Positions 2,022 to 45,185 of a DNA stretch of 52,647 bases are shown here, piece by piece. The position numbers were made by a program, and so were the translations under genes. The notes under the pieces are model-generated. The model was not told where the DNA came from and ran no database searches. It saw only the letters and a program-made list of their open reading frames with translations. The stretch comes from a virus, in the IMG/VR virus record IMGVR_UViG_3300049846_001015, positions 1 to 52,647 of that record. The stretch is one strand, 5' to 3'. How positions within the stretch are numbered: position 1 is the first letter of the stretch; every line of letters begins with the position of its first letter.

Positions 2022-2194
2022 CGCTTGATTCTCCAAAAAAGACGGTGTGAATAGTGTGAGGGACAGGCTACAGTTCCTAGACCGCGAAATTGAATAGCGG
2101 TTAGATATTGAACTGCGTAGGCAGGAAGACAGACAGGAAGATCGAGGAACTTGAGCGGAATAGGATCAATCGGCTCGTTTTTATCGAGAACCAC
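2018..2194 (-). CDS. Small protein with GTG start, 58 aa
   Basis: GTG at 2194 is preceded by GGAG at 7 bases, and its TGA overlaps the ATG of the next gene, so it is well supported as a coupled gene although short. The product contains CLPAYAVQYLTAIQF. This is loosely reminiscent of the AGYxxxDxxIxxF core of the nearby array, but the Asp is absent. Function unknown. Confidence 0.5.
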   Translation of the reverse strand: MVLDKNEPIDPIPLKFLDLPVCLPAYAVQYLTAIQFRGLGTVACPSHYSHRLFWRIKR

Positions 2195-2546
2195 GCAATT
2201 TCTCCAGGATCTCTATTACGAAGTCGGGGCGGTCTTGAACGGTGAAAGCGGGAAAGTATAGCCCTCTCCAGCCTAAGAGTACGAGGGCATTGTGCTTTTG
2301 CCAATCTCGGATAGCGCCTTTCCCTGAATGCCCGTAACCGTGTCCTTGAACTTCTATGAAAATCTTGTCGGGGAAACTGAAATCAAGTCGCCAGTCCTTG
2401 TAGCCGGATTTGGCTAGTCGATCTCGCAATCCCGGACCAGAACCGACCATCTCTGCAAAAACACGGTGCTGCGGAGTGAATAATATATTACGCTCGTTAA
2501 GAGCGGAAGCAAGGGATTCTTCGGCGGTTTTTTTCGTTTTTTTCAT
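2181..2546 (-). CDS. PD-(D/E)XK-like endonuclease (Vsr/DUF559-like), 121 aa
   Basis: Residues 50-100 carry DFSFPDKIFIEVQGHGYGHS followed by a helix (RDWQKHNALVLLGW) and a strand ending YFP. An Asp-(x)n-E-x-Q active site, a conserved basic/aromatic helix and a final strand are the layout of Vsr-like and DUF559-like nucleases of the PD-(D/E)XK fold, which hydrolyse DNA phosphodiester bonds. ATG at 2546 overlaps the preceding stop (ATGA). It sits immediately downstream of the tandem small-gene array. Its target is unknown: it may process branched or mismatched phage DNA, or host DNA. Confidence 0.65.
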   Translation of the reverse strand: MKKTKKTAEESLASALNERNILFTPQHRVFAEMVGSGPGLRDRLAKSGYKDWRLDFSFPDKIFIEVQGHGYGHSGKGAIRDWQKHNALVLLGWRGLYFPAFTVQDRPDFVIEILEKLRGSR

Positions 2547-2728
2547 GCTGGAGGGAACAAGCCTTGGCTATACCAAACGTTGTCGAGGATAGGATTACCG
2601 ATGGCGCGGGATATTGCTCCGTAAGGTCCAATGCCGAACCACGCAAATATTACGGCATCAAATTCCGAGAGACCCGAGAACGAATTGAGATCCTGAACTT
2701 CGAAATCCAGATGCTTTACTCTAGACAT
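2543..2728 (-). CDS. Array paralog 15 (last copy), 61 aa
   Basis: Core SFSGLSEFDAVIFAWF at residues 17-32, retaining the invariant Gly and Asp. ATG at 2728 overlaps the end of copy 14 by 8 bases, and GAGG lies 7 bases upstream. The stop overlaps the start of the nuclease-like gene. The C-terminal half is unlike other copies. Confidence 0.7.
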   Translation of the reverse strand: MSRVKHLDFEVQDLNSFSGLSEFDAVIFAWFGIGPYGAISRAIGNPILDNVWYSQGLFPPA

Positions 2729-2879
2729 ACTTAGTCCTCAGTAAAAAGGACAGCAAAGGTGGGAGTCGGGCCGCCGCAGGGTATACCAGAAACGGAACGA
2801 TGAAATCGTCGCATTCGCAATATCCGGCAAAAAATCGGATAGGAGTAGAGATGGAGAATTCGGGAAGATCAAGACGCAT
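2721..2879 (-). CDS. Array paralog 14, 52 aa
   Basis: Core FFAGYCECDDFIVPF at residues 16-30. It starts at ATG 2879, overlapping the stop of copy 13. It is closest to copy 13 (RFAGYSQYDSFIVPF) and copy 7 (FFAGYAQCDSFIIPF), which suggests these form one subfamily. Confidence 0.7.
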   Translation of the reverse strand: MRLDLPEFSISTPIRFFAGYCECDDFIVPFLVYPAAARLPPLLSFLLRTKYV

Positions 2880-3024
2880 AGTATTTTGCCAAAATGCCCA
2901 CGAAAGAAACCCACTGAGCTCCGGGTGAAATCATAAATGGGACAATAAACGAGTCGTATTGGGAATATCCGGCGAAGCGGCGTTTTTCTATCCTAGCGTA
3001 TAAGCTAGGCGATTCAATTCTCAA
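2869..3024 (-). CDS. Array paralog 13 (TTG start), 51 aa
   Basis: Core RFAGYSQYDSFIVPF around residues 17-31. I place the start at TTG 3024 because GGAGGT lies 5 bases upstream and the codon sits just before the TGA of copy 12; no ATG is available before the core. The TGA overlaps the ATG of copy 14. Confidence 0.65.
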   Translation of the reverse strand: MRIESPSLYARIEKRRFAGYSQYDSFIVPFMISPGAQWVSFVGILAKYYAS

Positions 3025-3208
3025 AGGTTACCTCCGAAAACTTGCTTCTCAAAGCGTAGGGGCATCCGTCCGAATGGAAGAACGCCGCGAAAATCACCCC
3101 GTCCATCTGATCGTACCCTTTCAAAGAAGCCCGAAGAGAACCTAGCCAATTTTTAGCTAGTCCGTGACACTTAAACCAATATCTGGTGCTTGGGTTTCCT
3201 ATTACCAT
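3014..3208 (-). CDS. Array paralog 12, 64 aa
   Basis: Core SLKGYDQMDGVIFAAF in the middle of the protein. Lys replaces the usual Ala before the Gly, but Gly and Asp are kept. ATG at 3208 overlaps the end of copy 11. The C-terminal end encodes the ribosome binding site of the next copy. Confidence 0.65.
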   Translation of the reverse strand: MVIGNPSTRYWFKCHGLAKNWLGSLRASLKGYDQMDGVIFAAFFHSDGCPYALRSKFSEVTFEN

Positions 3209-3357
3209 ACGTCAAGATTGATAGCTCTGGGTAATCCGTTGAAGTCAAAGAACGCAACCGCGAGAACCCGGTCGAATGCGTGGTGCCCCGCGAATTTCGT
3301 CACGAATTCATCCGTGCCCCATAGCGGAATTAGGGGGAGCCGAGAGTTTATCACCAT
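3202..3357 (-). CDS. Array paralog 11, 51 aa
   Basis: Core KFAGHHAFDRVLAVAF at about residues 21-36, with His in place of the usual Tyr. ATG at 3357 lies 4 bases past the stop of copy 10. Short C-terminus ending VW. Confidence 0.65.
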   Translation of the reverse strand: MVINSRLPLIPLWGTDEFVTKFAGHHAFDRVLAVAFFDFNGLPRAINLDVW

Positions 3358-3360
3358 TTT

Positions 3361-3552
3361 TCACCGTTGATACATGAGATACCGCCCCACCGGACCAATA
3401 GTTGTGAACATGCAAGAAAAGATCCCGGAAGATAAGGGGGATTGGTTAAACGGAGCTATAACAGTATCGAATTCTCTATAACCTGCGAAATTTTGACCGA
3501 TCAAAGCCCACTCCCCCCAACCGGGGCCGATGTTAGTAGTTTGAAGTATCAT
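3361..3552 (-). CDS. Array paralog 10, 63 aa
   Basis: Core NFAGYREFDTVIAPF at residues 21-35, a close match to the consensus. It overlaps copy 9 by 20 bases. The nearest AGGAG is about 15 bases from the ATG, so translation may depend on coupling to copy 9. Confidence 0.7.
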   Translation of the reverse strand: MILQTTNIGPGWGEWALIGQNFAGYREFDTVIAPFNQSPLSSGIFSCMFTTIGPVGRYLMYQR

Positions 3553-3706
3553 AGATAAATCTGGTACTCCTGGCTTTTAGATCAAGTGGTTCGTAAGGGC
3601 TTGTGAGGACTGGATCAAACTCGTAGTCGCCCGCGAAAACACCATAAAAGCTGCGGGGGAAGAAGCGGTTTCGAATAATTTCCAAAGGTGAAACTGGGAG
3701 TTTCAT
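3533..3706 (-). CDS. Array paralog 9, 57 aa
   Basis: Core VFAGDYEFDPVLTSPY at about residues 23-38. ATG at 3706 is 14 bases after the stop of copy 8. It opens MKLP. The C-terminus RSTRFIYDTSNY resembles the RFIDYDLWD end of copy 2. Confidence 0.65.
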   Translation of the reverse strand: MKLPVSPLEIIRNRFFPRSFYGVFAGDYEFDPVLTSPYEPLDLKARSTRFIYDTSNY

Positions 3707-3720
3707 GTTCAACTCGCAAG

Positions 3721-3915
3721 TTAATCTCGGTCAAACCAAAAGCAGTTATCCGGGACGCCGGGAAACGCGGACAGTAGATTATTGGGGATGTGCATAACAT
3801 GAGGTTGCCGGAGGAAGTTCACGATAATTTCGTCTAGATCCGCGAAACCCGCAAACATTGCGCAGTTAATCACGCACTTTTCGATAACTCGAAATCTTTG
3901 CCTCGGAAGATTCAT
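3721..3915 (-). CDS. Array paralog 8, 64 aa
   Basis: Core MFAGFADLDEIIVNF at residues 20-34. ATG at 3915 overlaps the stop of copy 7 (ATGA). It has a longer, aromatic C-terminus (NCFWFDRD). Function unknown, as for all copies. Confidence 0.7.
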   Translation of the reverse strand: MNLPRQRFRVIEKCVINCAMFAGFADLDEIIVNFLRQPHVMHIPNNLLSAFPGVPDNCFWFDRD

Positions 3916-4073
3916 GCTTCCCCCATAATCGCTTTTTCTATCATAAACGAAGGCATAGCCGCAACTGGACGATGAAATCGAAATGGAATGATAAACGAAT
4001 CACACTGAGCGTACCCGGCAAAAAAGTCGAGAGCGAGGAAATCATCCTCAGCCAACGGACACGGGAGGATCAT
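3912..4073 (-). CDS. Array paralog 7, 53 aa
   Basis: Core FFAGYAQCDSFIIPF at residues 17-31, nearly identical to copies 13 and 14 despite the distance. This implies non-neighbour duplication or gene conversion. ATG 4073 overlaps the TGA of copy 6. Confidence 0.7.
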   Translation of the reverse strand: MILPCPLAEDDFLALDFFAGYAQCDSFIIPFRFHRPVAAMPSFMIEKAIMGEA

Positions 4074-4204
4074 GTTATCTCCTTAAAAATGCAACTACCG
4101 GCGCAGTCCGCCCAAATAACGCGGTCGAAATCGTAATACCCTACGAGAAGAAAAAACAAGTCCAGATTCAATTCCGTCGGTAAATCTTGGGATTCGACTT
4201 TCAC
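4070..4204 (-). CDS. Array paralog 6 (GTG start), 44 aa
   Basis: The shortest copy. Core LLVGYYDFDRVIWAD, keeping Gly and Asp. GTG at 4204 has GGAG about 8 bases upstream. The C-terminus KEIT encodes the AAGGAGATAAC ribosome binding site for copy 7. Confidence 0.6.
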   Translation of the reverse strand: MKVESQDLPTELNLDLFFLLVGYYDFDRVIWADCAGSCIFKEIT

Positions 4205-4209
4205 TCAGG

Positions 4210-4380
4210 CTACTCCGCATAATAATTTGGCTTGAGGCCGAACCACCAAGCGGCCTCGGCCCTTGCTCCTACGAAGGGGATCATAACCCAATCGAACTCA
4301 GCGAATCCGGCGAAGTTCTTGAAAGCGAGTACCGCAGCGTAGGCAGAGCAGGGGGTTTCCATCAACGGGAGAGCAGCCAT
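4210..4380 (-). CDS. Array paralog 5, 56 aa
   Basis: Core NFAGFAEFDWVMIPF at residues 22-36. ATG at 4380 lies inside the end of copy 4. The C-terminus is Ala- and Trp-rich (AEAAWWFGLKPNYY). Confidence 0.7.
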   Translation of the reverse strand: MAALPLMETPCSAYAAVLAFKNFAGFAEFDWVMIPFVGARAEAAWWFGLKPNYYAE

Positions 4381-4538
4381 ATTTTTCCTTCGAATAGGAA
4401 ACTAACACAGGTATCAATGTCGGTGGGAGAGATCCCGTTAGGAATGTACGCGGCAAAAATAACGGAATCGAATTCTTGCCGCCCCTTGAACTTGCCATAA
4501 TACGGCACAATAGCAAACTTGTCTCGTCTAAGAATCAC
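4362..4538 (-). CDS. Array paralog 4 (GTG start), 58 aa
   Basis: Core KFKGRQEFDSVIFAAY, with Lys and Arg replacing the usual Ala and Tyr. GTG at 4538 is preceded by GGAGG at 6 bases and overlaps the stop of copy 3. Confidence 0.65.
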   Translation of the reverse strand: MILRRDKFAIVPYYGKFKGRQEFDSVIFAAYIPNGISPTDIDTCVSFLFEGKIWLLSR

Positions 4539-4734
4539 TCCCGGCCTCCGGAAACTCAGGGGGAGAGAAGATCAAGTCCAAATTTCGCAGAGGGTCCGCG
4601 CCTACAATCATCCTTCCCCTCCCCAGTCCACAGAAAAATGACGCAAAAATCACCGAGTCACAATCAAGATACCCAGCGAACTTGGTGTATCCCGCGTAAG
4701 GGGGGCGGGCGGCGTTATAAGCTGGTAACAGCAT
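4528..4734 (-). CDS. Array paralog 3, 68 aa
   Basis: Core KFAGYLDCDSVIFASF after a preceding YAGYT. The start is ATG 4734 because AGGAGAG is 3 bases upstream; an in-frame start at 4767 has no such site. It is the longest copy, ending in a Pro-rich acidic tail. Confidence 0.7.
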   Translation of the reverse strand: MLLPAYNAARPPYAGYTKFAGYLDCDSVIFASFFCGLGRGRMIVGADPLRNLDLIFSPPEFPEAGSDS

Positions 4735-4757
4735 GATCTCTCCTAATTTCTGCGTTG

Positions 4758-4952
4758 TCAATCCCAAAGATCATAGTCGATGAATCGACTCGGAAGCGCT
4801 ATCGGGTCGCCGTGTCGATAAGGAGAGGCTATTGCGTAGTCGAACTCAAAATTCCCCGCGAACCTAAAGAAGTCCTTAAAAATCTCCCTCATTTGTAGAA
4901 CGCTCCCCGGAACCGTGGATCTCCGTTTCGAAAATTCAGGTTCTAGAAGCAT
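4758..4952 (-). CDS. Array paralog 2, 64 aa
   Basis: Core RFAGNFEFDYAIASPY at about residues 30-45, with Asn replacing Tyr. ATG at 4952 overlaps the end of copy 1 by 10 bases. The N-terminal half is basic. Confidence 0.7.
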   Translation of the reverse strand: MLLEPEFSKRRSTVPGSVLQMREIFKDFFRFAGNFEFDYAIASPYRHGDPIALPSRFIDYDLWD

Positions 4953-5128
4953 AATCTCCCACCGAAAGTAAAGTTTCGGGAGAACCCTGTCCTCGACACT
5001 CGGATTCGAGCCTCGGGGTCGTCATACAAAAACGGAATTATCGCCTCGTCGAACTCCGTGTACCCGACGAAATTCGCGATGGCGTTAATCTTGCCGCCGC
5101 CGTATTCAATGTTGCTAACGACTCTCAT
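4943..5128 (-). CDS. Array paralog 1 (first copy), 61 aa
   Basis: Core NFVGYTEFDEAIIPF at residues 19-33. ATG at 5128 is chosen over an in-frame GTG at 5146 because CGGAG lies 5 bases upstream and the GTG would fall at the terminator T-run. First gene after the intrinsic terminator at 5147-5181. Confidence 0.7.
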   Translation of the reverse strand: MRVVSNIEYGGGKINAIANFVGYTEFDEAIIPFLYDDPEARIRVSRTGFSRNFTFGGRLCF

Positions 5129-5146: not shown

Positions 5147-5181
5147 AAAAAACCCCGGCCAAGTAGGGGTCTTGGCCGGGG
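5147..5181 (-). terminator. Intrinsic terminator upstream of the small-gene array
   Basis: On the minus strand a perfect 11-bp stem (CCCCGGCCAAG / CTTGGCCGGGG) with a 7-base loop is followed at once by six T. It ends transcripts from the 5221-6830 genes. Only 18 bases separate it from the ATG of the first array gene, so the array can be reached only by read-through, antitermination, or a start site inside this hairpin. Confidence 0.9.
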
Positions 5182-5220
5182 GAGAGACTGCCGAAGTCCT
5201 AAGGACTACCGGCTTCCGGG

Positions 5221-5691
5221 CTAGTCGCGAGCACGCCGTTCGGCCTGTTCCTCGGCGTCCCAGTTTCGTTGGATCACAACCGCGCAGGTCATCTCGCCCT
5301 TGTAGACGTGATTCCCGTGCTCCGGGTGGGTCAACTCGGCTTGGCCGTTGGCGGTTTGGAACACCGGCCCGATGTAAGTCGGGTTGATATTCGCGCCGTT
5401 GGCTTGCCGGATCAACTCGACCACGCTGTCCGGGTCGCAGTCGTAGATGTTCCCGGTGCTCAGGACGTGGCGGGAACCCTGAGTGTCCCCTTCCGCCACT
5501 TGCCGGTTGGCCCGGACTTTCGCCTTCGCAGGCAAGCGGGGGATACGAACGACGATCACGTCGCCTTGATCCACAGCTTCCCCGATGCCCAACTGAGCCT
5601 CGGTGAACTCCACCGGCGCGTCGTTGTGCATCTTTTCGTGGTCTCCCGTAACTCGCGGGATGATCCGTTCTTTCGTCACTTCTTGAAGCAT
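5221..5691 (-). CDS. Hypothetical phage protein, 156 aa
   Basis: ATG at 5691 has GGAGG 5 bases upstream; the longer frame start at 5721 does not. The product is mixed alpha/beta, soluble and acidic. A central segment VDQGDVIVVRIPRLPAKAKV suggests a beta-barrel-like fold. I recognise no family. It lies between the DUF6745 gene and the terminator, so the two genes probably share a transcript and this terminator is their 3' end. Confidence 0.7.
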   Translation of the reverse strand: MLQEVTKERIIPRVTGDHEKMHNDAPVEFTEAQLGIGEAVDQGDVIVVRIPRLPAKAKVRANRQVAEGDTQGSRHVLSTGNIYDCDPDSVVELIRQANGANINPTYIGPVFQTANGQAELTHPEHGNHVYKGEMTCAVVIQRNWDAEEQAERRARD

Positions 5692-5765: not shown

Positions 5766-6830
5766 CTAGCTACGATGGATGGTGAAACGGTCGAGACCGT
5801 GACTCATCCAATCTTGTGCCGCCTGACAACTGTTGATTGTCATGGGCACTCCTAACGCATAGCGACGACCAGTGGAGGGATCGCTACAACAAAAGCGGCG
5901 GGTATCGGAATTCCGCATCTTGTACAGCACTTCCTCTTGGGCGTCCCGGTCATTGGTGCGGGAGTCAACGACTTCCGCGCCAGATTCCCGAAGATATCGT
6001 TCCCAACCGAACCGCTCGATCCGAATCCGACGGCGTTCTTCGTCCCGCTCCCGTTCAATCTGCTCGATTGTCTGAGTCTCGGGACGCATCACAATCTGCT
6101 CGTCCACCTCAACGCCGTGGATGGAGTAGAACTTGTGACCGTCGGCGTATGCCATCGCGGGACCGTCCTCGCAATGCAAACGGTAGTTGTCCGAACCGGG
6201 GGTCTTTTCGATCTTCCGCGTGGTGGCCCGTTCGCAGAAAATCACGAATTCCGTGTCGTCGAACCGGGGACCGCCGTTCAAGCAGAGACGCTCGTAAGCG
6301 TCGTACTTCTCCGGCTCGTTCGGCTGAACTCCCTTGATATCCCGGAGGAAGCTCATGTAGCAGCAATGGAATCCCCACTCGCTGCCACCGTTGTACCAAT
6401 CCGGCCACCGCTGGCGGCACTTTTCCGCGTCGGAGTCGATCTTGTAGCCCGACTTCGGGAAAGTTTCCTTAATGAAATTGTTGGCCCATTCCAAGCCAGC
6501 TTTCCACGCCTTGTCCGGCGAGCAATCCCGGATATGCTCCAGCAAGCCGGGGGCGATGTTGGGGCATTCCCCGAATCGCCCGTCCTTGCCGAACTTCTCG
6601 TACATTGCCACGCTAATCGCGGTGACCACGATCCCGATCATCGCCGAAGGGGCGTAGAGGATCACTTCCGGACCGTCGTATCCGGCAGCTTTGTGGTAGT
6701 CGCGAATGGCTTTCGCGCACTCTTCCTTGTTGATCGGCTCGGTGGAAAGGATCACGTCGATCCACTTTTGGTTCCACCCCGGGAGAATGTCACGTTCTTC
6801 TTCCGGCGTAATTCGAATCTCGTCGCTCAT
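5766..6830 (-). CDS. DUF6745-like protein, 354 aa
   Basis: The C-terminal 170 residues match my memory of DUF6745. LHCEDGPAMAYADGHKFYS is followed by HGVEVDEQIVMRPE, then RRIRIERFGWERYLRESGA, and near the end RYALGVPMTINSCQAAQDW. Family members are cytosolic proteins of unknown role in diverse bacteria. The N-terminal 200 residues are helical with several Cys and Trp. ATG 6830 has AGGAGA 5 bases upstream, one of the best ribosome binding sites here. The gene follows a candidate promoter at 6881-6908, so it likely heads a two-gene unit ending at the terminator. Confidence 0.75.
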   Translation of the reverse strand: MSDEIRITPEEERDILPGWNQKWIDVILSTEPINKEECAKAIRDYHKAAGYDGPEVILYAPSAMIGIVVTAISVAMYEKFGKDGRFGECPNIAPGLLEHIRDCSPDKAWKAGLEWANNFIKETFPKSGYKIDSDAEKCRQRWPDWYNGGSEWGFHCCYMSFLRDIKGVQPNEPEKYDAYERLCLNGGPRFDDTEFVIFCERATTRKIEKTPGSDNYRLHCEDGPAMAYADGHKFYSIHGVEVDEQIVMRPETQTIEQIERERDEERRRIRIERFGWERYLRESGAEVVDSRTNDRDAQEEVLYKMRNSDTRRFCCSDPSTGRRYALGVPMTINSCQAAQDWMSHGLDRFTIHRS

Positions 6831-15723: not shown

Positions 15724-16255
15724 CGAATACTCCTAAAAACTTGCCTTTTGAGTGTTCTGGGATGAGAGTTTCCGGCTGGGGGAAGTTGAACGGCTCCTTA
15801 GTAAGATCCAAAGCCCTGTATCCGGCAGACGGCTTATCCATCCGTTTCGAGTTGTCCGCTCCCGGATAAGTGGTGGAAATGAACCAGTCGCACCGAGTTT
15901 TCCGCAAAACTTGCAGAATCATCTCGTTTGGAAGATGGATAAAGACATCTCTTGCAACGACGATCTCTGCGGTAAATTGACGCACATCCAGAATGTTAGA
16001 CTCGGTGCAATCATAAGCTTCCCATGAAGGATGGGATTTGATATCAAAACCTCGATATTGCGCACCGGATTGAAAGAGGGCATGGCGGGCAAAGTTCAGA
16101 TCTCCACAGCCCAATTCGATTATGACAGAGGGATTCTTCTCTTTGAGAATAGCGGGAAGTCGGGCAATAACTTCCTGCATATTGCAAACTTTCGACCCGG
16201 CCCCGCAGCGAGTTTCGTCCCCACCCCCGAACCAATCAGTCGGAAACTTTTCCAT
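15701..16255 (-). CDS. Class I SAM-dependent methyltransferase, 184 aa
   Basis: Motif I IIELGCGDLNFARH (residues 45-58), the acidic residue YRGFDIKSH after strand 2, and VVARDVFIHL (motif IV region) identify a Rossmann methyltransferase. The substrate is unknown. Its place next to two glycosyltransferases suggests sugar or cell-surface chemistry rather than DNA. Confidence 0.75.
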   Translation of the reverse strand: MEKFPTDWFGGGDETRCGAGSKVCNMQEVIARLPAILKEKNPSVIIELGCGDLNFARHALFQSGAQYRGFDIKSHPSWEAYDCTESNILDVRQFTAEIVVARDVFIHLPNEMILQVLRKTRCDWFISTTYPGADNSKRMDKPSAGYRALDLTKEPFNFPQPETLIPEHSKGKFLGVFDARTRNG

Positions 16256-16946
16256 GTTTTTCCTTCAACTTCTTGAAAATCACGCCTTTCGGATGCCGAT
16301 TAGACCCCCTAATCGGGGATCTCTTACGGTAGATGTAGATGGGATCTTGGATATTCGCGATTTCGCTCGACGATAGGACTTTCAAGAGCGGGAACATCAA
16401 AGCCACGTCGGTACACACTCTCAGCCACTTGTTGTCCAATACAAAGTGAGATTCCTTGAGATGCGGCAACAGAGAAGTATGGAAAGTTCGGAGAGGGGGA
16501 GCTTTGAAGTTCTTATCTTCCAGAAAGGAATTGTCGTCTATTTGCTCAGGAGTGTACCATCGAGGATGCCCGCCTCCGATTCCCTTATGACGCGCCCACC
16601 CTCCCAGTGTCATTTTGAATCCCTGTTCATAGTAAGGAGCTACGATGGAAAAGGCATCTCTCCTCAGATAATCGTCGAGATCCAGTTGAACGGCAACGCC
16701 GGGTCCGGAAATTTCTTGAATCAAATCCCAGCGAGACTTAGCCGCGCCTAGATTGGCTTTTGTCCGGGAAGCATGAATTCGGGGATCTTCTTTAGCCAAT
16801 CTCTCAAGTTTCCCAAACGTGGCGTCGGAAGATCCGTCATCCCGGACAAAGGCTTCCCATTCCTCTGTCTGGGAGTACAAAGAACTGTACCAGTCATCGA
16901 CGAATTTCTCACAGTTTAACCCGCAAGAAATTACGAAGAATTTCAT
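16236..16946 (-). CDS. Family 2-like glycosyltransferase, 236 aa
   Basis: GT-A fold start VISCGLNCEKFVDDWYSSL, the nucleotide-sugar motif VRDDGSSDAT near residue 35, and LDLDDYL in place of D-x-D near 92. It transfers a sugar from an NDP-sugar to an unknown acceptor. ATG 16946 has GAGGA upstream. Confidence 0.8.
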   Translation of the reverse strand: MKFFVISCGLNCEKFVDDWYSSLYSQTEEWEAFVRDDGSSDATFGKLERLAKEDPRIHASRTKANLGAAKSRWDLIQEISGPGVAVQLDLDDYLRRDAFSIVAPYYEQGFKMTLGGWARHKGIGGGHPRWYTPEQIDDNSFLEDKNFKAPPLRTFHTSLLPHLKESHFVLDNKWLRVCTDVALMFPLLKVLSSSEIANIQDPIYIYRKRSPIRGSNRHPKGVIFKKLKEKHGKVSD

Positions 16947-17605
16947 CGAAAGTCCTCTAGGTTAAGAGAGATTCGGTGACCCATCGGCTTCTTAGTGAAG
17001 ATGTTGGAGTCGTGGATTACCTGGAGACCGCCGATTTTTGGTATCCTAATCTGCTTAGAGAACAGCTTACAAATTGCGGCGTGAGAGGCTGAATAGCAAT
17101 GCCGCTGCCGAGTAGAATGAATCACCGAAACAAACTGGGAATTGTTCAGGGGCCGAAGGACTTTGCGGAATTCTCCAGTCTGGATATCTATCTGCGCGGT
17201 ATCCCAATCAACCAAAACTGGATGGGGCTTCTTAACGAAATCCGCTTTTCTCCGGAGACCTGTCCAAGTTTCGTAGAGAGTTTTCACGAAATCCCGACAA
17301 AGCATATCGTCACTGTCCATCCGGGTAGTGATCGAACCCTCAGGAAATTCGTAATCCTGGATGGGACTGAAAGAGACTTCGGCAAATTCTTTCAGATACC
17401 GAAGGATTTCCAGGGAGGTGTCTTTGTGGCAAGCAAAAACGGCGATAAAATCCTTGCGGGTTTGTTTCTCCAGAGAGGGTCTCATGTACTCTCGAACAAG
17501 GGAGAGTCGGCGGTTTACCCATTCCTCGTTCAACCAGAGCGCCTTAGCGGCCTGAACCCTATCCGTTGGGATAGAGTTGAAACGAGTTAGGATGTAATGC
17601 GACAC
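16943..17605 (-). CDS. Rhamnosyltransferase-like glycosyltransferase, 220 aa
   Basis: HYILTRFNSIP at the N-terminus, WVNRRLSLVREYMRPSLEKQ, and ITTRMDSDDMLCRDFV near residue 95 (D-x-D-D) fit the putative rhamnosyl transferase family (GT-A fold). It starts at GTG 17605, overlapping the upstream TAG. Confidence 0.75.
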   Translation of the reverse strand: MSHYILTRFNSIPTDRVQAAKALWLNEEWVNRRLSLVREYMRPSLEKQTRKDFIAVFACHKDTSLEILRYLKEFAEVSFSPIQDYEFPEGSITTRMDSDDMLCRDFVKTLYETWTGLRRKADFVKKPHPVLVDWDTAQIDIQTGEFRKVLRPLNNSQFVSVIHSTRQRHCYSASHAAICKLFSKQIRIPKIGGLQVIHDSNIFTKKPMGHRISLNLEDFR

Positions 17606-20379: not shown

Positions 20380-20836
20380 GATTATTCCTAATAGGAGTAG
20401 TTAGTGCTTTTTGAAAATCCCAGCCAGCTTTTATTCGACGCCAAAACGATTTATACGGAATCCCAGCTTCCAATGCCCACTGTTTTAGATTTTGACTTCT
20501 TCCTTCAAACTCGACTAGGACATTCGTAACCCTGTTGTTCTGTTGTTCTTTTTGAGTCGCCCAACGGCAATTTTCTGGGAAGTATCCAAGATTTCGGTCT
20601 ATCCGATCAATTGTATGCTTTTGCGTGGGTTTGACTCCCATGTCTGAAAAGAAATTCTCAAAAGAGTTAGACCATCGCTCGCATACGGTTATCCCTCTAC
20701 CTCCGTAAAGATGATATCGGTTGTTCTTGGGATTGTTACACCGCTCCCGCATTTTTACCCAAGATTTCCACTCCGAGGTATACCGCATTCCGTGTTTATA
20801 ATTCATTAAGGGAATCTCGCCATTCGGTAAGATCAC
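20360..20836 (-). CDS. HNH-family (homing-type) endonuclease, 158 aa
   Basis: Residues 20-110 contain WKSWVKMRERCNNPKNNRY, YGGRGITVCERW, HTIDRIDRNLGYFPENCRWAT and QQNNRVTN, the His-Asp ... Asn-Cys-Arg-Trp pattern of free-standing phage HNH homing endonucleases. A C-terminal helix-turn-helix-like region (LKQWALEAGIPYKSFWRRI) probably binds DNA. The gene lies between a methyltransferase and the recA gene, overlapping both slightly, so it looks like an insertion adapted to the operon. The start may be GTG 20836 or ATG 20806. Confidence 0.82.
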   Translation of the reverse strand: MILPNGEIPLMNYKHGMRYTSEWKSWVKMRERCNNPKNNRYHLYGGRGITVCERWSNSFENFFSDMGVKPTQKHTIDRIDRNLGYFPENCRWATQKEQQNNRVTNVLVEFEGRSQNLKQWALEAGIPYKSFWRRIKAGWDFQKALTTPIRNNHGKRSN

Positions 20837-21747
20837 GCTTTTCTGACATCGGCTTTCTCCAATCGTTTTTCAATCAACTTGACATAATCGGGGTTTAATT
20901 CAATCCCCACGGCATTTCTGTTGTTTTGTAAGGCTACTTGGATCGTAGTCCCGCTTCCGACAAAAGGATCGAGAACTGTCCCATTCTCGGGGCATCCGGC
21001 TAAAATGCAAGGCAGAATAAGCTCGGGAGGGAAAGTGGCAAAGTGTGCCCCCTTGAAGGGTTTAGACGTAACCGTCCAAACGGATCTCTTATTTCTCTTG
21101 CCGTCGCCGGGAATTCCTGCCCGCCCCCCATCGTTCCTATCCCCATTAGCCCCAGACTTCTCGGCTAAACTCCCGTTAAATTTTCCAGGCGTTCCTGCTG
21201 GCTCGGAAATCGCGTCCTTGTCAAAGTAGTACCTCGGACCCTTCGACAGCAAAAAAATGTACTCGTGCGCCTTCGTACACCTATCTCGCACACTTTCTGG
21301 CATCGGGCTCGGCTTGTTCCAGATAATGTCCTGGCGGAGATACCACCCATCGGATTGCAGGGCGAACGCAACTCGCCAGGGAATGCCGATTAAGTCTTTC
21401 GGTTTGAGGCCAGGGACATTAGCGCCAGATCGTGAAATTCCACGATGCCGAGCAAGATCGGCCTGCTTTCCACCGCCAGAGTGACCACCGTTTCTACCTG
21501 CGTTGTAACTATCCCCCAAATTCAGCCACAAAGTCCCGTCATCCCGCAATACCCGCCGAACACTCCTAAATACCTCCACCAACTTCCCAACATACTCGTC
21601 AGGAGTCTCCTCAAGACCGATCTGTCCCGTAACCCCATAGTCTCGCAATCCAAAGTACGGCGGACTCGTCACACAACAATGTACGGAGTTATCAGGCAGT
21701 TCTTTAATTTTCTCAAGAACATCGCCGACGAGAACTTGGTATCCCAC
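20833..21747 (-). CDS. DNA methyltransferase, class beta (N4-C or N6-A), 304 aa
   Basis: Catalytic motif IV TSPPYFGLRDYG near residues 27-38 precedes the SAM-binding motif I DPFVGSGTT near 260-268. This order defines the beta class. SPPY is most usual in N4-cytosine enzymes but occurs in N6-adenine ones. It would mark phage DNA against host restriction; no cognate restriction gene is nearby. GTG 21747 is preferred (GAGGG 4 bases upstream, overlapping the previous stop) over an in-frame ATG at 21789. Confidence 0.87.
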   Translation of the reverse strand: MGYQVLVGDVLEKIKELPDNSVHCCVTSPPYFGLRDYGVTGQIGLEETPDEYVGKLVEVFRSVRRVLRDDGTLWLNLGDSYNAGRNGGHSGGGKQADLARHRGISRSGANVPGLKPKDLIGIPWRVAFALQSDGWYLRQDIIWNKPSPMPESVRDRCTKAHEYIFLLSKGPRYYFDKDAISEPAGTPGKFNGSLAEKSGANGDRNDGGRAGIPGDGKRNKRSVWTVTSKPFKGAHFATFPPELILPCILAGCPENGTVLDPFVGSGTTIQVALQNNRNAVGIELNPDYVKLIEKRLEKADVRKA

Positions 21748-22316
21748 TAGTCCCTCAGTTTCATATCTTCGGTTTTTCGAACAGTCCAACAGCTTCCCCT
21801 TTTCTTCACTACGCCTTTGGGGAAACTCCCGTCAACAGCTTTTACTACATCCGGCCAGCCGGTCCCGTAGTCGTGACCGGCCATCCATCCCCCGGGTTTG
21901 ACCTTCGGGAACCACGCTCGGATATCCGCTCTAACGGCGTTGAGCGTGTGCTCCATGTCGATGAACATCACGTCAATGCTATTATCCGCAAAATCGGGGG
22001 CGGCTTCCAGAGAAGTTTTTCGAATTGGCGTGAATTTCCGCTCTCCCATGTTCTCAAGGAACATAGCGTAAACGTCATTCGTAACAGCCAGCTTGTGGAA
22101 AGTTTCAAGCTCGTTCACCGAACCCTTCCAGGTATCTACGATGAAAATTTGTGCGTTGGGCCGGATCTCCGCAGCTTTATCGCATAGATAAGAACTGCTT
22201 TTCCCTAACCAAGCGCCGCCCTCCACAAAAACACCGTTTTCCGGCATCTCTTGTAGAAGGAAATCAAACACTTGCGGGTAGTCAAACCAACCGCCGATTT
22301 GTGAAGTCGGTTTCAT
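21747..22316 (-). CDS. Class I SAM-dependent methyltransferase, 189 aa
   Basis: GVFVEGGAWLGKSSSYL (motif I-like), IFIVDTWKG (acidic residue after strand 2), DVMFIDMEHTLNAV and KPGGWMAGHDY fit the Methyltransf_24-type family, whose members modify small molecules or sugars. ATG 22316 overlaps the previous TGA. Substrate unknown. Confidence 0.75.
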   Translation of the reverse strand: MKPTSQIGGWFDYPQVFDFLLQEMPENGVFVEGGAWLGKSSSYLCDKAAEIRPNAQIFIVDTWKGSVNELETFHKLAVTNDVYAMFLENMGERKFTPIRKTSLEAAPDFADNSIDVMFIDMEHTLNAVRADIRAWFPKVKPGGWMAGHDYGTGWPDVVKAVDGSFPKGVVKKRGSCWTVRKTEDMKLRD

Positions 22317-33086: not shown

Positions 33087-34736
33087 CTACATCTTGAGAA
33101 GGGCTTCGGGAGTATCCTCACCGATAGTCCAAATTTCGTAATCGAAAAATGGCAGCTTATTCTTCACGATCAATTCGAGATCCGTTCTTCGCTTATGGCT
33201 TCGGGCGAAAACAGCCCTCATCTGTTCGGCTGGGAATCTATCCTGACCCCAGATAAACCGATCCTGCAACCTAGCGACAATCCACTTATAGTCGGAGAAT
33301 CGGTTAAAGATATGAGGCTCGGCGTGAGCAAATGAATCTTGCTCGTCAGTGAAAACCAACATATCCGCAGGAGGCCAGGGATCGAAAATATCTTTCACCT
33401 TAACGTAGGCGTCTTTCTTTTCAGAAGAAGTCGGCTTGTCACTTTGCCCGACGATTGAAACACCGAACTGTACCGCCCAATCAATTGTCTCTCCGTCGTA
33501 ACTGCCCAACTCGAACACAGAGGCTTGCGTAAGAGAAGCAATTCGGGCAACTGACTGCTTCGACCCCCGGAGAGTATGCTGCCTGCGATAACCATATCGG
33601 TGTTTCCCCCAAAAGTCGATTCCCAGATCTTGTTCAAATACCTCTTCCCAAGAGTCGATCAATTGGGATACGGAAAACCGCTCTAGCCGGGAGTCATCAT
33701 ACTTGACCGAGGCAATGGTAGCGGAAGCTTCAACAAATCTTTTGATATCCGGAACCTTCCAAGTCGTCCCCACAGAATATCTAGTGGTAGCTGGGGGAAT
33801 CAAACCCGGATAATCTTCCCCAACAATTTCTGACATAGTTGTGTGGTCGGTAAGTAATTGCGGTAGCCCCGCCGCCATACACTCGGCCACGGTCAGACCC
33901 CAGCCCTCACCGTGAGAGGTATCAATACGCCAATCTGACATATTGATAATCTCGTTCAAGTCCTCAACGGGGAGATGCTTGTTCCAGTCAAATCCCGAGA
34001 ATACTACGTTATCCTCGATCCCATATACTTTCGCCATTTTGCGGAGATTGAATCCGCCGCGAGTTTCTTCCACGTCGGCTTTCGTGTGCGCGAGAAACTG
34101 AATCTCCGGGATGGTCTCTTTCATCCTCGCAACGTAGTCGAACGCGAGATCCCATCCCTTGTGCCAGAAATTTCTGTTGATATTCAGAACCAACGGGGCG
34201 TCGGGAAAAATAGGAACTCGCCAAAGCTTCGACCACTTCTTCCGGAGGGAACTTTTCGAAACATCCAACTTCCTAAACGCGGGATTAACCGCATGATGGA
34301 TAACTCGGTCGCTTTCTGCCCGAGTCCACAACTTCTGAGAAAAGTAGGACAGGTGAATCACCGCGCCCGGAGCAACTCCCCACCAGAGATTCAGCATATC
34401 CTCTGGGACTGTTGATCCTTCGTAGGGAAACCAGTAGTAAATCGGAATATTCGCCGGGGCTACTTTCAGATCCATCCAGCCGTTGATTCTTTGGGCGGAA
34501 TCGAAGAAAATAGCTACGTTAGGCCGGATCTCGGAAAGTACACGGTCAATCCCCGCCGCGTCGTAGGCTTCCGTGCGAATTTCTTCCCAAGGGAAAGCGT
34601 TTTCAGCTACGCCATACGGCTCGCAGACGACAACAACTTCGTGCCCCCGGTCGTGAAATCCTTGAGCTAGGAGTTGAGTTTGCTGCCCGAACCCTGTACC
34701 CCGGTTGGGGGAATTGCTGATAATCGCGATCTTCAC
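33087..34736 (-). CDS. GT4-type glycosyltransferase fused to a methyltransferase-like domain, 549 aa
   Basis: Residues 1-380 are GT-B: NSPNRGTGFGQQTQLLAQGF at the start, and the C-terminal nucleotide-sugar motif TSHGEGWGLTVAECMAAGLP near 273-292. From about 410 there is a second domain beginning SVFELGSYDGETIDWAVQFG, similar to motif I of class I methyltransferases, with VFTDEQDSF later. It could glycosylate and then modify the sugar. GTG 34736 has AGGAG 6 bases upstream. Confidence 0.78.
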   Translation of the reverse strand: MKIAIISNSPNRGTGFGQQTQLLAQGFHDRGHEVVVVCEPYGVAENAFPWEEIRTEAYDAAGIDRVLSEIRPNVAIFFDSAQRINGWMDLKVAPANIPIYYWFPYEGSTVPEDMLNLWWGVAPGAVIHLSYFSQKLWTRAESDRVIHHAVNPAFRKLDVSKSSLRKKWSKLWRVPIFPDAPLVLNINRNFWHKGWDLAFDYVARMKETIPEIQFLAHTKADVEETRGGFNLRKMAKVYGIEDNVVFSGFDWNKHLPVEDLNEIINMSDWRIDTSHGEGWGLTVAECMAAGLPQLLTDHTTMSEIVGEDYPGLIPPATTRYSVGTTWKVPDIKRFVEASATIASVKYDDSRLERFSVSQLIDSWEEVFEQDLGIDFWGKHRYGYRRQHTLRGSKQSVARIASLTQASVFELGSYDGETIDWAVQFGVSIVGQSDKPTSSEKKDAYVKVKDIFDPWPPADMLVFTDEQDSFAHAEPHIFNRFSDYKWIVARLQDRFIWGQDRFPAEQMRAVFARSHKRRTDLELIVKNKLPFFDYEIWTIGEDTPEALLKM

Positions 34737-34981: not shown

Positions 34982-35019
34982 AGCTTTATGGGCTTTCCGA
35001 AAAACTTGTCGTATCATAA

Positions 35020-35086
35020 AGGCAAGTGCGGGAATCGAACCCGCCTTACGCATCTTGAAACTGCGATGTCTCCCAGAGCACCTGCC
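35020..35086 (-). tRNA. Short tRNA with anticodon UCA, tRNA-Cys-like acceptor
   Basis: Acceptor GGCAGGT/ACTTGCC (one G:U); anticodon arm CGCAG-TTTCAAG-ATGCG (four pairs and a G-A closing mismatch); variable loop TAAG; T arm GCGGG-TTCGATT-CCCGC. The loop gives anticodon UCA, which reads UGA. Only 14 bases separate acceptor and anticodon stems, so the D arm is strongly reduced; total 67 bases. G2:C71, C3:G70 and U73 are the acceptor identity elements of tRNA-Cys. It lacks the long variable arm of tRNA-Sec. Whether it is charged is unknown. Confidence 0.7.
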
Positions 35087-35092
35087 CGTAGC

Positions 35093-38856: not shown

Positions 38857-39001
38857 TCTTCAAATCCTTGCATGAATTGCAAGAACACGGCGAACCTTTT
38901 GAGGGCTCGCCGGTTCTCTCGCAGACTTTGAACAGATAGCACCCCAGCGAAATCAATGCTCGCCAGTGGGCGCTAGCTGACTTTCTCTTTCTCCCTCGCA
39001 C
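38816..39001 (-). CDS. Possible small Cys-rich protein, 61 aa
   Basis: The 117 bases between two glycosyltransferase genes are covered by an open frame (GTG 39001). Its product has CERTGEPSKGSPCSCNSCKD, a plausible metal site. It overlaps both neighbours (29 and 41 bases) and no clear ribosome binding site is present, so it may be chance. Confidence 0.3.
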   Translation of the reverse strand: MRGRKRKSASAHWRALISLGCYLFKVCERTGEPSKGSPCSCNSCKDLKNESSLSLSDVQPG

Positions 39002-40898
39002 GGCGGATAGCCTCTTTCACCAATCCTGGAATCGGGTCTGTCGGATTCAGCTTCCACGCCAAGCCGGTCTTAACCGAGAGTGCGGCGGCTTTGATCTTTT
39101 CGGACCAACTCCAACGGTCCTGTCCGGCTTTAATCTGCTTAACGATTCGCTCGAATTGTTGCTCGCAGCCGTCACAGCCGAGTTTATCCATTTCCTCAGC
39201 TTTGGCCTTGCAATCGCATCCGGGCTTTTCCGCTACCCCAATTTCCTTGAGCATGTTGGTCAACTCGGTGCCCGGTCCTTTCCCTGGAGGGAAAATATTG
39301 ACCGGAGATGCGGGGCGGTCCACTTCCTGCAAACCAATAACAGTAATCCCCCACTTATGCTCGGCGTGGTAGGCGACGAACGCTTTGGGATTTTGATTGA
39401 GATACCACTTGATTCCTTCGAAAAGACCGGGAGAATTTCCACCCTCTCCGACGTTGCCGTTTGAACCAGTTCCGCGAATAACGATAAACCGTCGGACTTG
39501 GCCTCCATGCAAACTGAGTTCTGCTTTAAGCCGCTCTCCGCTATGAACGGTATCCAAATACAGAAGATCCGTCTCGTCGATAATTGGGACCGAAAGGCTA
39601 TCTGTATCCGCGTAGATTTCGACCGACCCTTGGGGGAGGGCTTCAATCACTTTCCGGAGAACCAGATCCGGCTCTTTCGTATAGCTCACCAATTTTAGCG
39701 GCTTGCCCGCTGCGAAGGCAATAGTAGATTCTCGCTTCTTGGTGAATTCGGTGACTCGATTACATTTCGAAGCGAACTCGCGGAGAGTGTCGAAATGTTC
39801 GTCGAGATCCCGCTTACCTGCTTTGCCCCACTCAAACAAAGCTGCGATATCTGTAAGTTGAGGGGGCGGCTGGCTTCCCTGCAAATTACGCAGTTGAAGC
39901 GCCGATGCCGGTCGGAAATGCTTGATCGGATTATCCAACAAGTATTCCCACTGGTCTTTGGGGAGCTTGAACCCGCTGTGGATTTGGCGGAGTTTATCGG
40001 GAGACCGGCGAATCAACTCCAAACTAACCGAATGGACTTCAACCAAATGCTTTGGCAAGTCCTCATCCGAGATGTCTTGATTTACGAAGTGGTCGTAAAT
40101 ATCGTCTAGCGGTAATCCTAGTTCTTGGTGCCCGAGGACGTAATTCCGAACCTTATCGTACAGGAGTGCCGGATACTTATTCCCCCCGACTCGGCCAAAA
40201 CGATGAATCCATCGCAAAAAGGGAAGGCAGAGAGCCCGCCCCCCGGCCTGCCTGAACTTCTCATGGATGTAGAGTTCCTCCCCGCCAAATCCTCGGAAAT
40301 AAGGATTGAACCCTACCCATGATTTCTTGAGACACGCAAAAACTCCCAGACCTTGGCCGGGAATCTCGAAAGGAGGATTTTGCGCGTCGGCGGCTCGGTT
40401 GTCGCAGCCCCACGTTCCCCACATGGCCGAACGCCATACGGGATCGAATTGAGTTTCGAAACTGTTTGTGGGAAGCACTTTCCGTAGATCGGCGACAAGC
40501 GCTACGTCGTCATAGACCAAAGGACCGCTGACGATATCCTTCGAATCCGGGTAAACTTCGAAGTAAGCGCGGAGAAGGTCAATCACTCCGACGGGAAACA
40601 TGACGTGGCAATCCATTACCAAAACCAAGTCCCCGGTAGCTTCCCTAAAGATCCGCTCCCGAGGTTGGGTGGTCCCGGTACTTTCCGGCATCGGAATATA
40701 GCGGACGGTGACAGAATTTTGCGCCCGCATCCATTTCCCAAGGAAACTCCGGAGATGTTTGCTGTGTTCACTTCCGGGAGAGTTATCGACTACGATAATT
40801 TCGCAGTCTTTCAGATTTTGGTGGAGCGCCAAGCTCTCAAGGGTGAAGTATACCCCGTCAAAATCTTCGTAATGAGCCATTCCAATTGTAAGTTTCAT
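38973..40898 (-). CDS. Multidomain glycosyltransferase with planctomycetal-type C-terminal module, 641 aa
   Basis: Residues 1-240 are GT-A: TIGMAHYEDFDGVYFTLESL, IIVVDNSPGSEHS, LVLVMDCHVMFP (D-x-H motif), GFGGEELYIHEKF. Residues 380-530 look like a Rossmann methyltransferase-like region (DLLYLDTVHSGERLKAEL). The end carries CDCKAKAEEMDKLGCDGC and GLVKEAIRRA, a tail I recall from planctomycetal glycosyltransferases. It lies directly after the Thr-rich tail gene. AAGGAATTGAA precedes ATG 40898. Confidence 0.82.
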   Translation of the reverse strand: MKLTIGMAHYEDFDGVYFTLESLALHQNLKDCEIIVVDNSPGSEHSKHLRSFLGKWMRAQNSVTVRYIPMPESTGTTQPRERIFREATGDLVLVMDCHVMFPVGVIDLLRAYFEVYPDSKDIVSGPLVYDDVALVADLRKVLPTNSFETQFDPVWRSAMWGTWGCDNRAADAQNPPFEIPGQGLGVFACLKKSWVGFNPYFRGFGGEELYIHEKFRQAGGRALCLPFLRWIHRFGRVGGNKYPALLYDKVRNYVLGHQELGLPLDDIYDHFVNQDISDEDLPKHLVEVHSVSLELIRRSPDKLRQIHSGFKLPKDQWEYLLDNPIKHFRPASALQLRNLQGSQPPPQLTDIAALFEWGKAGKRDLDEHFDTLREFASKCNRVTEFTKKRESTIAFAAGKPLKLVSYTKEPDLVLRKVIEALPQGSVEIYADTDSLSVPIIDETDLLYLDTVHSGERLKAELSLHGGQVRRFIVIRGTGSNGNVGEGGNSPGLFEGIKWYLNQNPKAFVAYHAEHKWGITVIGLQEVDRPASPVNIFPPGKGPGTELTNMLKEIGVAEKPGCDCKAKAEEMDKLGCDGCEQQFERIVKQIKAGQDRWSWSEKIKAAALSVKTGLAWKLNPTDPIPGLVKEAIRRAREKEKVS

Positions 40899-40911: not shown

Positions 40912-43900
40912 CTAAACAGGCGTGCAGGGGAAAACCCCTTGAACAGTGGACGTGGTGGGACAATTGCATCCAGGTAAACAACTATAATCAATCCGGGTAT
41001 ACACTTCCCGAACCGAAATTTCTCCATCGAACGACGCCGGCTCAACACCATACTCGCAAGTCCCGCAAGCCGGGGTCGTAGTTGTGGTCGTCGTAGTTGT
41101 GGTGGTTGTGGTGGGGCAATTAACCGTCCCGCAGTTTTCTCCCTCATATCCAGGATAGGAGACGCAACCGTCAGCCTCGCATTGACACTTGCGGAGGAAA
41201 TAGCAATCTCCGTAAGAACCGAGACCGTCAATCCCGTCACAGCAGCAGAGAGTGATCTCACACTCGCTCGTATCCGTACAATCCTCCCCCTCAAACCAAC
41301 AGGCGGGGAGTGGGCATTCCGACTCTAGAGTAACCGCGCAAGATCCGTCGCCAAAACAACATCTTCCTGTAGGCGGGTAGCATTCAGCGCAATCGGTCAA
41401 ATCACAACGCCAAACACCCCCATTAAGTTCACAAGCAAACTCGGTAACATTCTCAGTACACCCATCTTGCGGATAATTACAGCAAACACAAGAAGGAGGT
41501 GGAGTAGTTGACGTAGTTGTGGTAGTGGTAGTTGGCGGTTGAGACCCGCAAGCTGTCCAAGTAGTCGGGTTAGTGCAGAAATCCAGTGTGGGGGCAGATC
41601 CCGGCTCTGCGCAAGGGCATTCAGGATCGCAGGGGTTAGTCTCGATATTCCAAAATCCGGTGCCGGAATTCCAAACCCACTTGCAAAGATCGTTACAGGG
41701 AGCCTTTGTGGTTGACGTACAGTAGTTCTCGCAAGGATCGTAGTCAGTTCCCGGCAAGCAGGGCATCGAAACGACGCGGCATACGTCAGGATCTTCCGTC
41801 CAAGTAGGTTCGAGACACTGACACGCCTCAGCTTGACCGTTGTATTCGCATCCTCCCAACGGGAACCAACAGTTCAAAATTCCATGCCAGCACCAAGAGC
41901 AGGACGACCGACACGGAGGATCTGGTTGTCCTGTGGTGGTGGTCGTTCCGGAGCAGGATGTAGTCTCTGTTACGCAAGTGCAGTTATCCTCCGGAGTGTA
42001 GTCCGGTTCGGGACATTGGCAGCAATCGGTATTGCATTGGCTCTCAAGATCTGGCCTAGCTTCTCCATCCAGATCCTCTGAGCCAAAACAGTCGCAACCA
42101 ACCCGCCATTGTCCGGCGCAGGAGAATGCTGAGTAGTCAAACTCGGGGTCGTATTTACGCCACATGCTCGCGGCCCAAACCCAATGGCAGGTTCCGGAGC
42201 AAGTAACTTCTTCGCAAGGATTTGTGCAGGGAGGACATTCTCGACCGCAGTAATCAACTTGGCGACTTTGTGGACCACACGCAGTCATCACGCATTCGCC
42301 GTCGTTTGTTCCGCATTCAAACGGCTTCATGCAGACACACGTTGACGGAGGGAGTGTCGTCGTGGTAGTAGGCGGGCAAGGTTCGGCCTTGACAATCTCC
42401 TGACACTCTCTCCCCTCAAGAGAAACTTGGAGTTCCGTCAGGTAATTAAACTCGGCTTGGAAGCGATTGCAAGTCCAAGACCCGCGATCCATAGTATTTA
42501 CTTGGTCGCTTGTAAAATTCTCGTAATAGAGAATGAACGTGTCGCCCTCGAACTGTCCCCAAATTTCTAAGAATACTTGGAGTTCCCCTTCAACAAGAAC
42601 GAAAGGATCAGTAGACCAAACGTGTCCCCCGTCAATTACGCGGTGGGTAAGTTCAATTGGGACGTTAAGAAATAGCTCATCCTCGTAAAAAAGCGTAGCC
42701 GTCCCTGTCATTTTTTTGGGGAGACAGTAACACTCTGGAACAACGTCATCCGGAAGATCGACGAGAACGCAACCCAACCCGCAAGCGCGAAAACAAGTCT
42801 CGGGCGTCGGTTCGATAGTTGTCGTAGTGGTCGTTGTCCTCCAATTTTCGGAACAAGCGTTGATCGTCTCGACCCAAACTGTTTCAAGCTCGTCCCAAAC
42901 AAAGAGGCAATACCCGTAGCATTCATTGAAATACGGGTCAAGCGGTTCTTCTGGATCGGAATTGCCATCCCTACTGAACCCGAGATTCAGCATGGCTTCG
43001 ATATCGAGAGACAGCCTTCCCATCTCGTCTTTGTGGAGACCGCACCCAAGAGGGATGTTTATCCGAGCTTCTAATGCGTAGACTTCCGTGTTAGCCCGAA
43101 GAATAGAATCTCGCTCGGCGCAGGCGCACTCGAAATCCGAACCGGGACAATCGTTGCCGACGCAGAAGTAAAAGAGAGTTTCCCCTACCGGATAGTCGGT
43201 GGAGTATGCTACCGGGCAAGCTTCGAAATATCCATCGAAGTTAATGCTCTCGCAGTTAGTGCAACCCGCAGCGGACAAACTTACGCGAATCGTAACGTCA
43301 TCCAACTCGATATCCGCGTATCCCTCAAAAGGGTTACACTGGAAAGCTAAAAGCGATACGCTTCCAGACGGCCCGAGTAGAACCGCGTAATCCAAACTGG
43401 CCGAGACAGGATCATACTCAAAAGTGATCTGAACGGGGCCGGATGGGATAATGAAATTAAAGGGATAGATCCAAGCCCCGGAGGAATAGTTGAATTCCGC
43501 GTCGAGGACCGCGAGGGTGTCCTCTGTTAGATTGTCTGTGATTGTGATTTCGGCAGCGATGTCACTCGGAGTGCATCCACAAGGTCCGAGCGTCGGGACG
43601 CAACCGCCGCAATTCTCGGACTCGGCGTGGAAATGCCAAGATTTGCCTAGGCACTCTAAAGAGGCTTGGGTTTCTCCGTAGCAACCGAAGATATAGCCCA
43701 TCGCTGCCCCGGTGAGCTTCCACTCGGTTTCGAGATCCTCGTCCTCTCGTAAAAACCCTCCGGTATTTCCGTAAGGGGAGGAAAGATAGAACCTTACCGG
43801 GGGAACTACGCATTCGCAGCAAGGGGTTTGAATTCCCGGGCAGCAATAGTCGTTCTCTACCGGGACTTTGAAAACCGGCCCACAGGCTACGACGAAGTTA

Positions 43901-44811: not shown

Positions 44812-45185
44812 CAACAACTCACTTCGTAATCGTCATTCACGCAGACTACGCGGAAACTCCCTGCAAGAGAAAAAACGGTGCCTCGAATCGTTGGAGGTTC
44901 GAATGTCCAAAATTCTACGGTCAGGTTTTCTCCCCAGTATCCGGTAAAGACCATTGTACCAGATTGCTTGTATTTATTGTACAAAAACTGGAAGGTGTCT
45001 TTATCAGCAGCAGCGATAGTCCAACTAAACGTGTCCTCGCCGTGAATGAACTCGGGTTGAAGGGTCTGAGTAACAACTCCCCCAGTCGTTTTGAGAATTG
45101 CGGTTCTCTTGCGGGGGATATAGGGTTGGTAAGAAAAAGACAGGGGCAAATTCTCGGAGGCAAGAGTTGCGATAGGGAAACTCAT
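44811..45185 (-). CDS. Distal-tail/minor tail-like protein, 124 aa
   Basis: LPLSFSYQPYIPRKRTAILKTTGG, DTFSWTIAAADKDTFQFLYNKY, GYWGENLTVEFWTFEPP and SLAGSFRVV follow the layout of short minor tail proteins placed right after the tape measure. Probably joins tail tube to tip. ATG 45185 overlaps the tape measure stop. Confidence 0.68.
   Translation of the reverse strand: MSFPIATLASENLPLSFSYQPYIPRKRTAILKTTGGVVTQTLQPEFIHGEDTFSWTIAAADKDTFQFLYNKYKQSGTMVFTGYWGENLTVEFWTFEPPTIRGTVFSLAGSFRVVCVNDDYEVSC

Follow-up and report, generated by a model that had tools for sequence, protein, structure and literature searches.

What kind of gene family is encoded by a run of fifteen very small adjacent genes in an uncultured virus of bacteria, and what could such a family be kept for? 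The window analyzed here is the complete IMG/VR virus record of 52,647 bp, which is probably a fragment of a larger genome. On its minus strand, between positions 2543 and 5128, fifteen consecutive ORFs of 44-68 aa occupy 2.6 kb (stop-to-start spans were re-derived), in agreement with the sequence-only reading, which had placed 15 adjacent genes of 44-68 codons here. Overlaps of 4-20 nt are seen at ten of the 14 junctions and gaps of 3-23 nt at the other four; the plus strand contains no long ORF across the same interval. The pooled codon score of the array ORFs is positive in frame and negative in both shifted frames, and an SD-like site, defined by a simple rule, is found at 10/15 starts. 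These ORFs are real coding genes. Stop-codon recoding that would merge them was rejected: copy 10 alone (3361-3552, minus strand, 63 aa, core NFAGYREFDTVIAPF) would fuse in frame to the next copy, its stop, if read through, joining it to copy 11. Elsewhere in the record, a tRNA-like sequence with a UCA anticodon (35019-35087, minus strand; tRNA-SeC as called by ARAGORN, with a sub-threshold match to Rfam RF01852) may be a TGA suppressor, even though more genes of this phage end in TGA (18/39) than in any other stop codon.

All fifteen proteins share a core of about 15 residues (F-A-G-Y-x-E-F-D-x-V-I-x-P/A-F), and the alignment bears out the earlier claim that its Gly and Asp are invariant (15/15). 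On the minus strand the array begins with copy 1 (4943-5128, 61 aa, core NFVGYTEFDEAIIPF) and includes copy 3 (4528-4734, 68 aa, core KFAGYLDCDSVIFAS), copy 4 (4362-4538, 58 aa, GTG start, core KFKGRQEFDSVIFAA), copy 5 (4210-4380, 56 aa, core NFAGFAEFDWVMIPF), copy 6 (4070-4204, 44 aa, GTG start, core LLVGYYDFDRVIWAD), copy 8 (3721-3915, 64 aa, core MFAGFADLDEIIVNF) and copy 12 (3014-3208, 64 aa, core SLKGYDQMDGVIFAA). As a guard against circularity, 15 leave-one-out profiles were used, each built from the other 14 copies, with 999 shuffles per copy. Every copy (15/15; 8.4-29.2 bits) scored above every non-array frame of the phage (maximum about 5.6), and 14/15 scored above all 999 of their own shuffles. 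The weakest, copy 11 (3202-3357, minus strand, 51 aa, core KFAGHHAFDRVLAVA), scored 8.4 bits where the best background frame had 4.8, and lay below its own best shuffle (13.8). A profile built from all copies recovered 15/15 array copies and no other place in the record. The paralogous expansion proposed in the sequence-only reading is upheld, with conservation of the core at the protein level.

The nature of this conservation is apparent from codon usage. Among same-residue pairs in the core, the codon was identical in 276/660, as compared with 277 expected from the codon usage of the phage (95% range 252-312). Codon identity at the random expectation means that silent sites are saturated while amino acids are held, and the combination of kept amino acids and randomized synonymous codons indicates purifying selection on the core as protein, without DNA-level constraint there. 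Hence, the core is under strong purifying selection as a protein. The sequence-only reading had named an empty homolog search, together with an absence of purifying selection, as grounds against its proposal; the search was indeed empty (see below), but the absence of purifying selection is contradicted for the core by the codon test.

Outside the core, the copies have little in common. Flank protein alignments compared with shuffles gave a mean Z of 0.21 ± 0.10 before the core and 0.01 ± 0.11 after it, flank DNA alignments in any frame were no better than shuffles (0.07 and 0.22), and no frame-shifted or inverted flank homology was found between copies. The earlier statement that the flanks share almost nothing therefore stands for alignment of both protein and DNA, but not for the N-terminus, where M-x-[LIVM] occurs in 13/15 copies vs. 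11/53 other phage genes (Fisher p = 5.5e-6). All 15 frames are intact despite this deep divergence. With silent sites saturated from copy to copy and no orthologs found, the flank dN/dS is beyond estimate, and the diversifying selection inferred in the sequence-only reading explains flanks that do not align no better than old divergence under weak constraint does. The array proteins are aromatic/Pro-rich and Lys/Glu/Gln/Thr-poor, with no stretch hydrophobic enough for a clear membrane segment, and two single-chain AlphaFold2 runs gave no usable model (pLDDT 58 and 50).

The relations among copies do not follow their order. As had been noticed from the sequence, copies 7 (3912-4073, 53 aa, core FFAGYAQCDSFIIPF), 13 (2869-3024, 51 aa, TTG start, core RFAGYSQYDSFIVPF) and 14 (2721-2879, 52 aa, core FFAGYCECDDFIVPF), all on the minus strand, form one non-neighboring subfamily, with pairwise Z of 10.4-13.5. 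A second dispersed pair is formed by copies 2 (4758-4952, minus strand, 64 aa, core RFAGNFEFDYAIASP) and 9 (3533-3706, minus strand, 57 aa, core VFAGDYEFDPVLTSP), with a Z of 9.8. Adjacent copies resemble each other no more than randomly paired ones do (p = 0.51). Block duplication was considered and rejected; an offset of seven genes gave the highest mean similarity, but with p = 0.066 before correction. The duplications appear to be old or reshuffled.

Our searches for relatives covered family libraries, structures, phages, plasmids and bacterial genomes. With all 15 copies, Pfam, PHROGs, NCBIfam and PADLOC returned chance-level matches only and no family at a meaningful E-value, and the same four libraries gave no profile match to known defense or anti-defense proteins (PADLOC consists of defense models, and anti-defense is thinly covered); a PDB profile search yielded one chance match. 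In tblastn with the 15 concatenated proteins, GenBank phages gave one irrelevant match and no array, and plasmids gave no match to the concatenated proteins. Five core-pattern scans of IMG/VR revealed no locus with a second convincing copy, the inspected matches being isolated, in larger unrelated proteins, in gene-overlapping frames or in low-complexity sequence, and a core-pattern scan of genome contigs showed no array among the matches listed. About 1,377 bacterial genomes in total were profile-searched: in a Planctomycetota sample, 3/392 had one weak match each at E <= 0.01, which is about chance, and genomes from the phyla to which three further loci belong (Reyranella sp., Lacunisphaera sp. 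and a Bacteroidia bacterium) gave 0/985 at E <= 0.001. Since the same profile recovers 15/15 copies in this phage, the genome search method is able to detect such arrays. Two direct searches found no relatives of the phage itself, and an alignment-guided search found helicase relatives only (21-36% identity), in records without the core. The phage is only distantly related to known ones, which its DNA polymerase, RecA-like and DnaB-like proteins match at about 22-31% identity. In the literature, no description of a 15-member paralogous micro-gene array of such form was found. Within the databases and genomes searched, the earlier statement that no phage family like this has been described is supported, and relative to these databases the array is an undescribed micro-protein family of unusual organization. 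We dismiss the possibility of an artefact; the array is a genuine and unusual gene family, orphan within the databases searched.

The closest resemblance that emerged lies in lambda gpI-like tail-tip assembly proteins (PHROG 32), in which one pattern scan found many copies of FVGHKEFDAVIN. Such proteins from a marine phage clade carry, near the N-terminus, a string that resembles the array core, ELADFVGHKEFDAVIN, and profile comparison with the array gave a probability of 81% over 19 residues, in a set preselected by motif. This match is discounted because the motif itself was the search pattern and is missing from the other gpI family members aligned (Gifsy-1, EK99P-1, Vibrio phage Cla). The gpI-like proteins are, moreover, approximately 200 aa long, whereas the array proteins have 44-68 aa. 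Kinship was rejected, given a match of 19 residues only, a motif unconserved in the family and an array outside the tail genes, and the resemblance is judged to be convergence.

The array lies near accessory DNA-metabolism genes, while the tail genes lie elsewhere, at 31-52 kb. Upstream are found genes for a Holliday junction resolvase, a Cas4-like exonuclease and a DUF6745 protein (5766-6830, minus strand; Pfam PF20530, E 3e-18), a 166-aa gene, and then an intrinsic-terminator-like hairpin (5153-5181, minus strand; 11 pairs, 9 GC, T run) approximately 24 nt upstream of the copy 1 start codon. The hairpin region folds 2.2 sd better than shuffles. Just upstream of the hairpin, within 5153-5225 (minus strand), a 13-bp palindrome, AGTCCTTAGGACT, is a possible operator. 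Promoter-like sites numbered 7 vs. a shuffle expectation of 6.6, with a motif that may not be that of the host. The strong upstream hairpin suggests that the operon is expressed via regulated read-through, or from an unrecognized promoter. Downstream, copy 15 (2543-2728, minus strand, 61 aa, core SFSGLSEFDAVIFAW) overlaps by 4 nt a 121-aa gene (2181-2546, minus strand), and owing to this overlap the two are probably translationally coupled. The product of this gene belongs to PHROG 503 (unknown function), has no Pfam or PDB match and, by eye only, looks nuclease-like. Further downstream follow a 276-aa PHROG 17202 protein and a 154-aa gene, then, at the record end, five tiny ORFs.

We tentatively favor, with a rough probability of 0.3, an explanation in which the array encodes host-directed micro-proteins with one docking core and divergent target-facing flanks. 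The fifteen paralogs would form one operon that arose by old tandem duplication within a tailed-phage lineage as yet undescribed; their core may serve as a docking or oligomerization element for a single partner shared by all of them (from the host, from the phage, or the other copies themselves), the freely diverging flanks would face the targets, and the phage would thereby deliver a variant set of one host-directed (takeover or anti-defense) micro-protein. Consistent with this are the kept amino acids and randomized codons of the core, the 15 intact frames, the N-terminal M-x-[LIVM], the lack of relation between flanks at both the protein and the DNA level, the tiny size and overlap of the genes, their ribosome sites, and a neighborhood of accessory DNA metabolism with a resolvase and a Cas4-like exonuclease upstream. 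The absence of a clear membrane segment also counts in its favor, as does a composition (aromatic/Pro-rich, Lys/Glu/Gln/Thr-poor) suited to hydrophobic binding. Against it stand the absence of similarity to known inhibitor or anti-defense proteins in the libraries and PDB searched, and the fact that no early promoter was assigned.

Small, early, clustered genes aimed at host processes are an established phage strategy (PMC6873191). In the Bacillus phage SPO1, the host takeover module packs mostly small genes into a single stretch of the genome, and many host processes are its presumed targets; its 26 genes are described as differing in effect and carry the promoters and ribosome sites that mark strongly expressed early genes (PMC6873191). 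The array likewise groups small genes closely (15 of them, of 44-68 aa each, within 2.6 kb), but, when the two are compared by description, it differs in that all 15 genes are paralogs with one core and stand behind a terminator-like hairpin. Phrased more broadly, the array might represent a phage system without counterpart, in which a docking core has been duplicated 15-fold with unrelated arms to yield a combinatorial host-target or enzyme-adaptor set; we regard this as doubtful.

The facts cited for the host-directed explanation fit a structural or oligomeric role as well. The core could be a self-assembly interface, with the 15 copies forming a mixed ring, filament or particle component; a hydrophobic core common to all copies, its G and D invariant, the similar lengths, and the co-expression that a single overlapping operon would give are all in keeping with such a hetero-oligomer. 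However, structure prediction, which was performed on single chains only, lent no support to assembly, the array lies near accessory DNA-metabolism genes and away from the tail genes at 31-52 kb, and fifteen unalignable flanks would be unusual in one assembly, which leaves this possibility, too, in doubt.

We consider it rather unlikely that the array is a selfish or near-neutral micro-gene expansion, generated by tandem duplication, with a minimal core kept against misfolding or toxicity and little adaptive role. The flanks show no measurable constraint, and five further tiny ORFs starting M-[KR]-[LVM] but without the core lie at the left end; yet continuous selection is needed to keep 15 frames intact and to preserve the core while silent sites have diverged to saturation. 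Alternatively, the array could be a set of adaptors, whose core binds one phage enzyme (e.g., the adjoining 121-aa protein) and whose flanks direct it to different substrates. A docking core shared by all copies, together with arms that vary, would suit adaptors, and the probable translational coupling of the 121-aa gene to copy 15 would agree with this; nevertheless, adjacency alone is weak and the 121-aa protein falls in a PHROG of unknown function, with no Pfam or PDB match, and we find this proposal unlikely.

Peptide precursors (RiPP-like or signaling), in which the core would be the recognition element for one processing enzyme, seem improbable. Many short genes with one conserved stretch and a variable remainder would be expected of them, but here the conserved stretch sits in the middle, flanked by variable sequence on either side, and no maturation enzyme was recognized among the genes tested (most phage genes are unannotated), the single weak match to a class V lanthionine synthetase model (E 0.024) being at chance level. 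Finally, a DNA-level repeat (a recombination, packaging or replication site) lying by chance in ORFs is refuted by the core codon test: imperfect direct repeats do coincide with the core, but codon choice at its synonymous positions matches the random expectation (276 identical vs. 277 expected), so that conservation of the protein is the sole cause of the repeat.

Given how compact phage genomes are, the retention of 15 diverged copies, each with its core intact, implies a real benefit. Should the copies act, as we tentatively favor, on host or defense proteins, the array would constitute a ready-made panel of variants on one scaffold, and the core would point to their common partner. More generally, a large tandem micro-protein family can reside in one phage lineage and escape family libraries, since its copies are short and alike in only about 15 residues.

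Several other features of the record were also observed. The five left-end tiny ORFs (minus strand; 3-209, 274-426, 423-608, 608-739 and 729-893) mostly overlap and all begin M-[KR]-[LVM], without the array core; ORF 608-739 contains EFDILTA, and its weak best match is copy 9. Glycosyltransferases are encoded at 16236-17605, 33087-34736 and 38973-40898 (minus strand; Pfam PF00535, PF11316 and PF00534). Between a glycosyltransferase gene and the tail genes lies a 1301-aa Cys-rich protein with long Thr runs (40912-44817, minus strand), which has no Pfam match and whose Cys motifs presumably resemble those of planctomycete proteins. The gene at 20833-21789 (minus strand) encodes a DNA N6/N4 methyltransferase with close similarity to type II restriction methylases.
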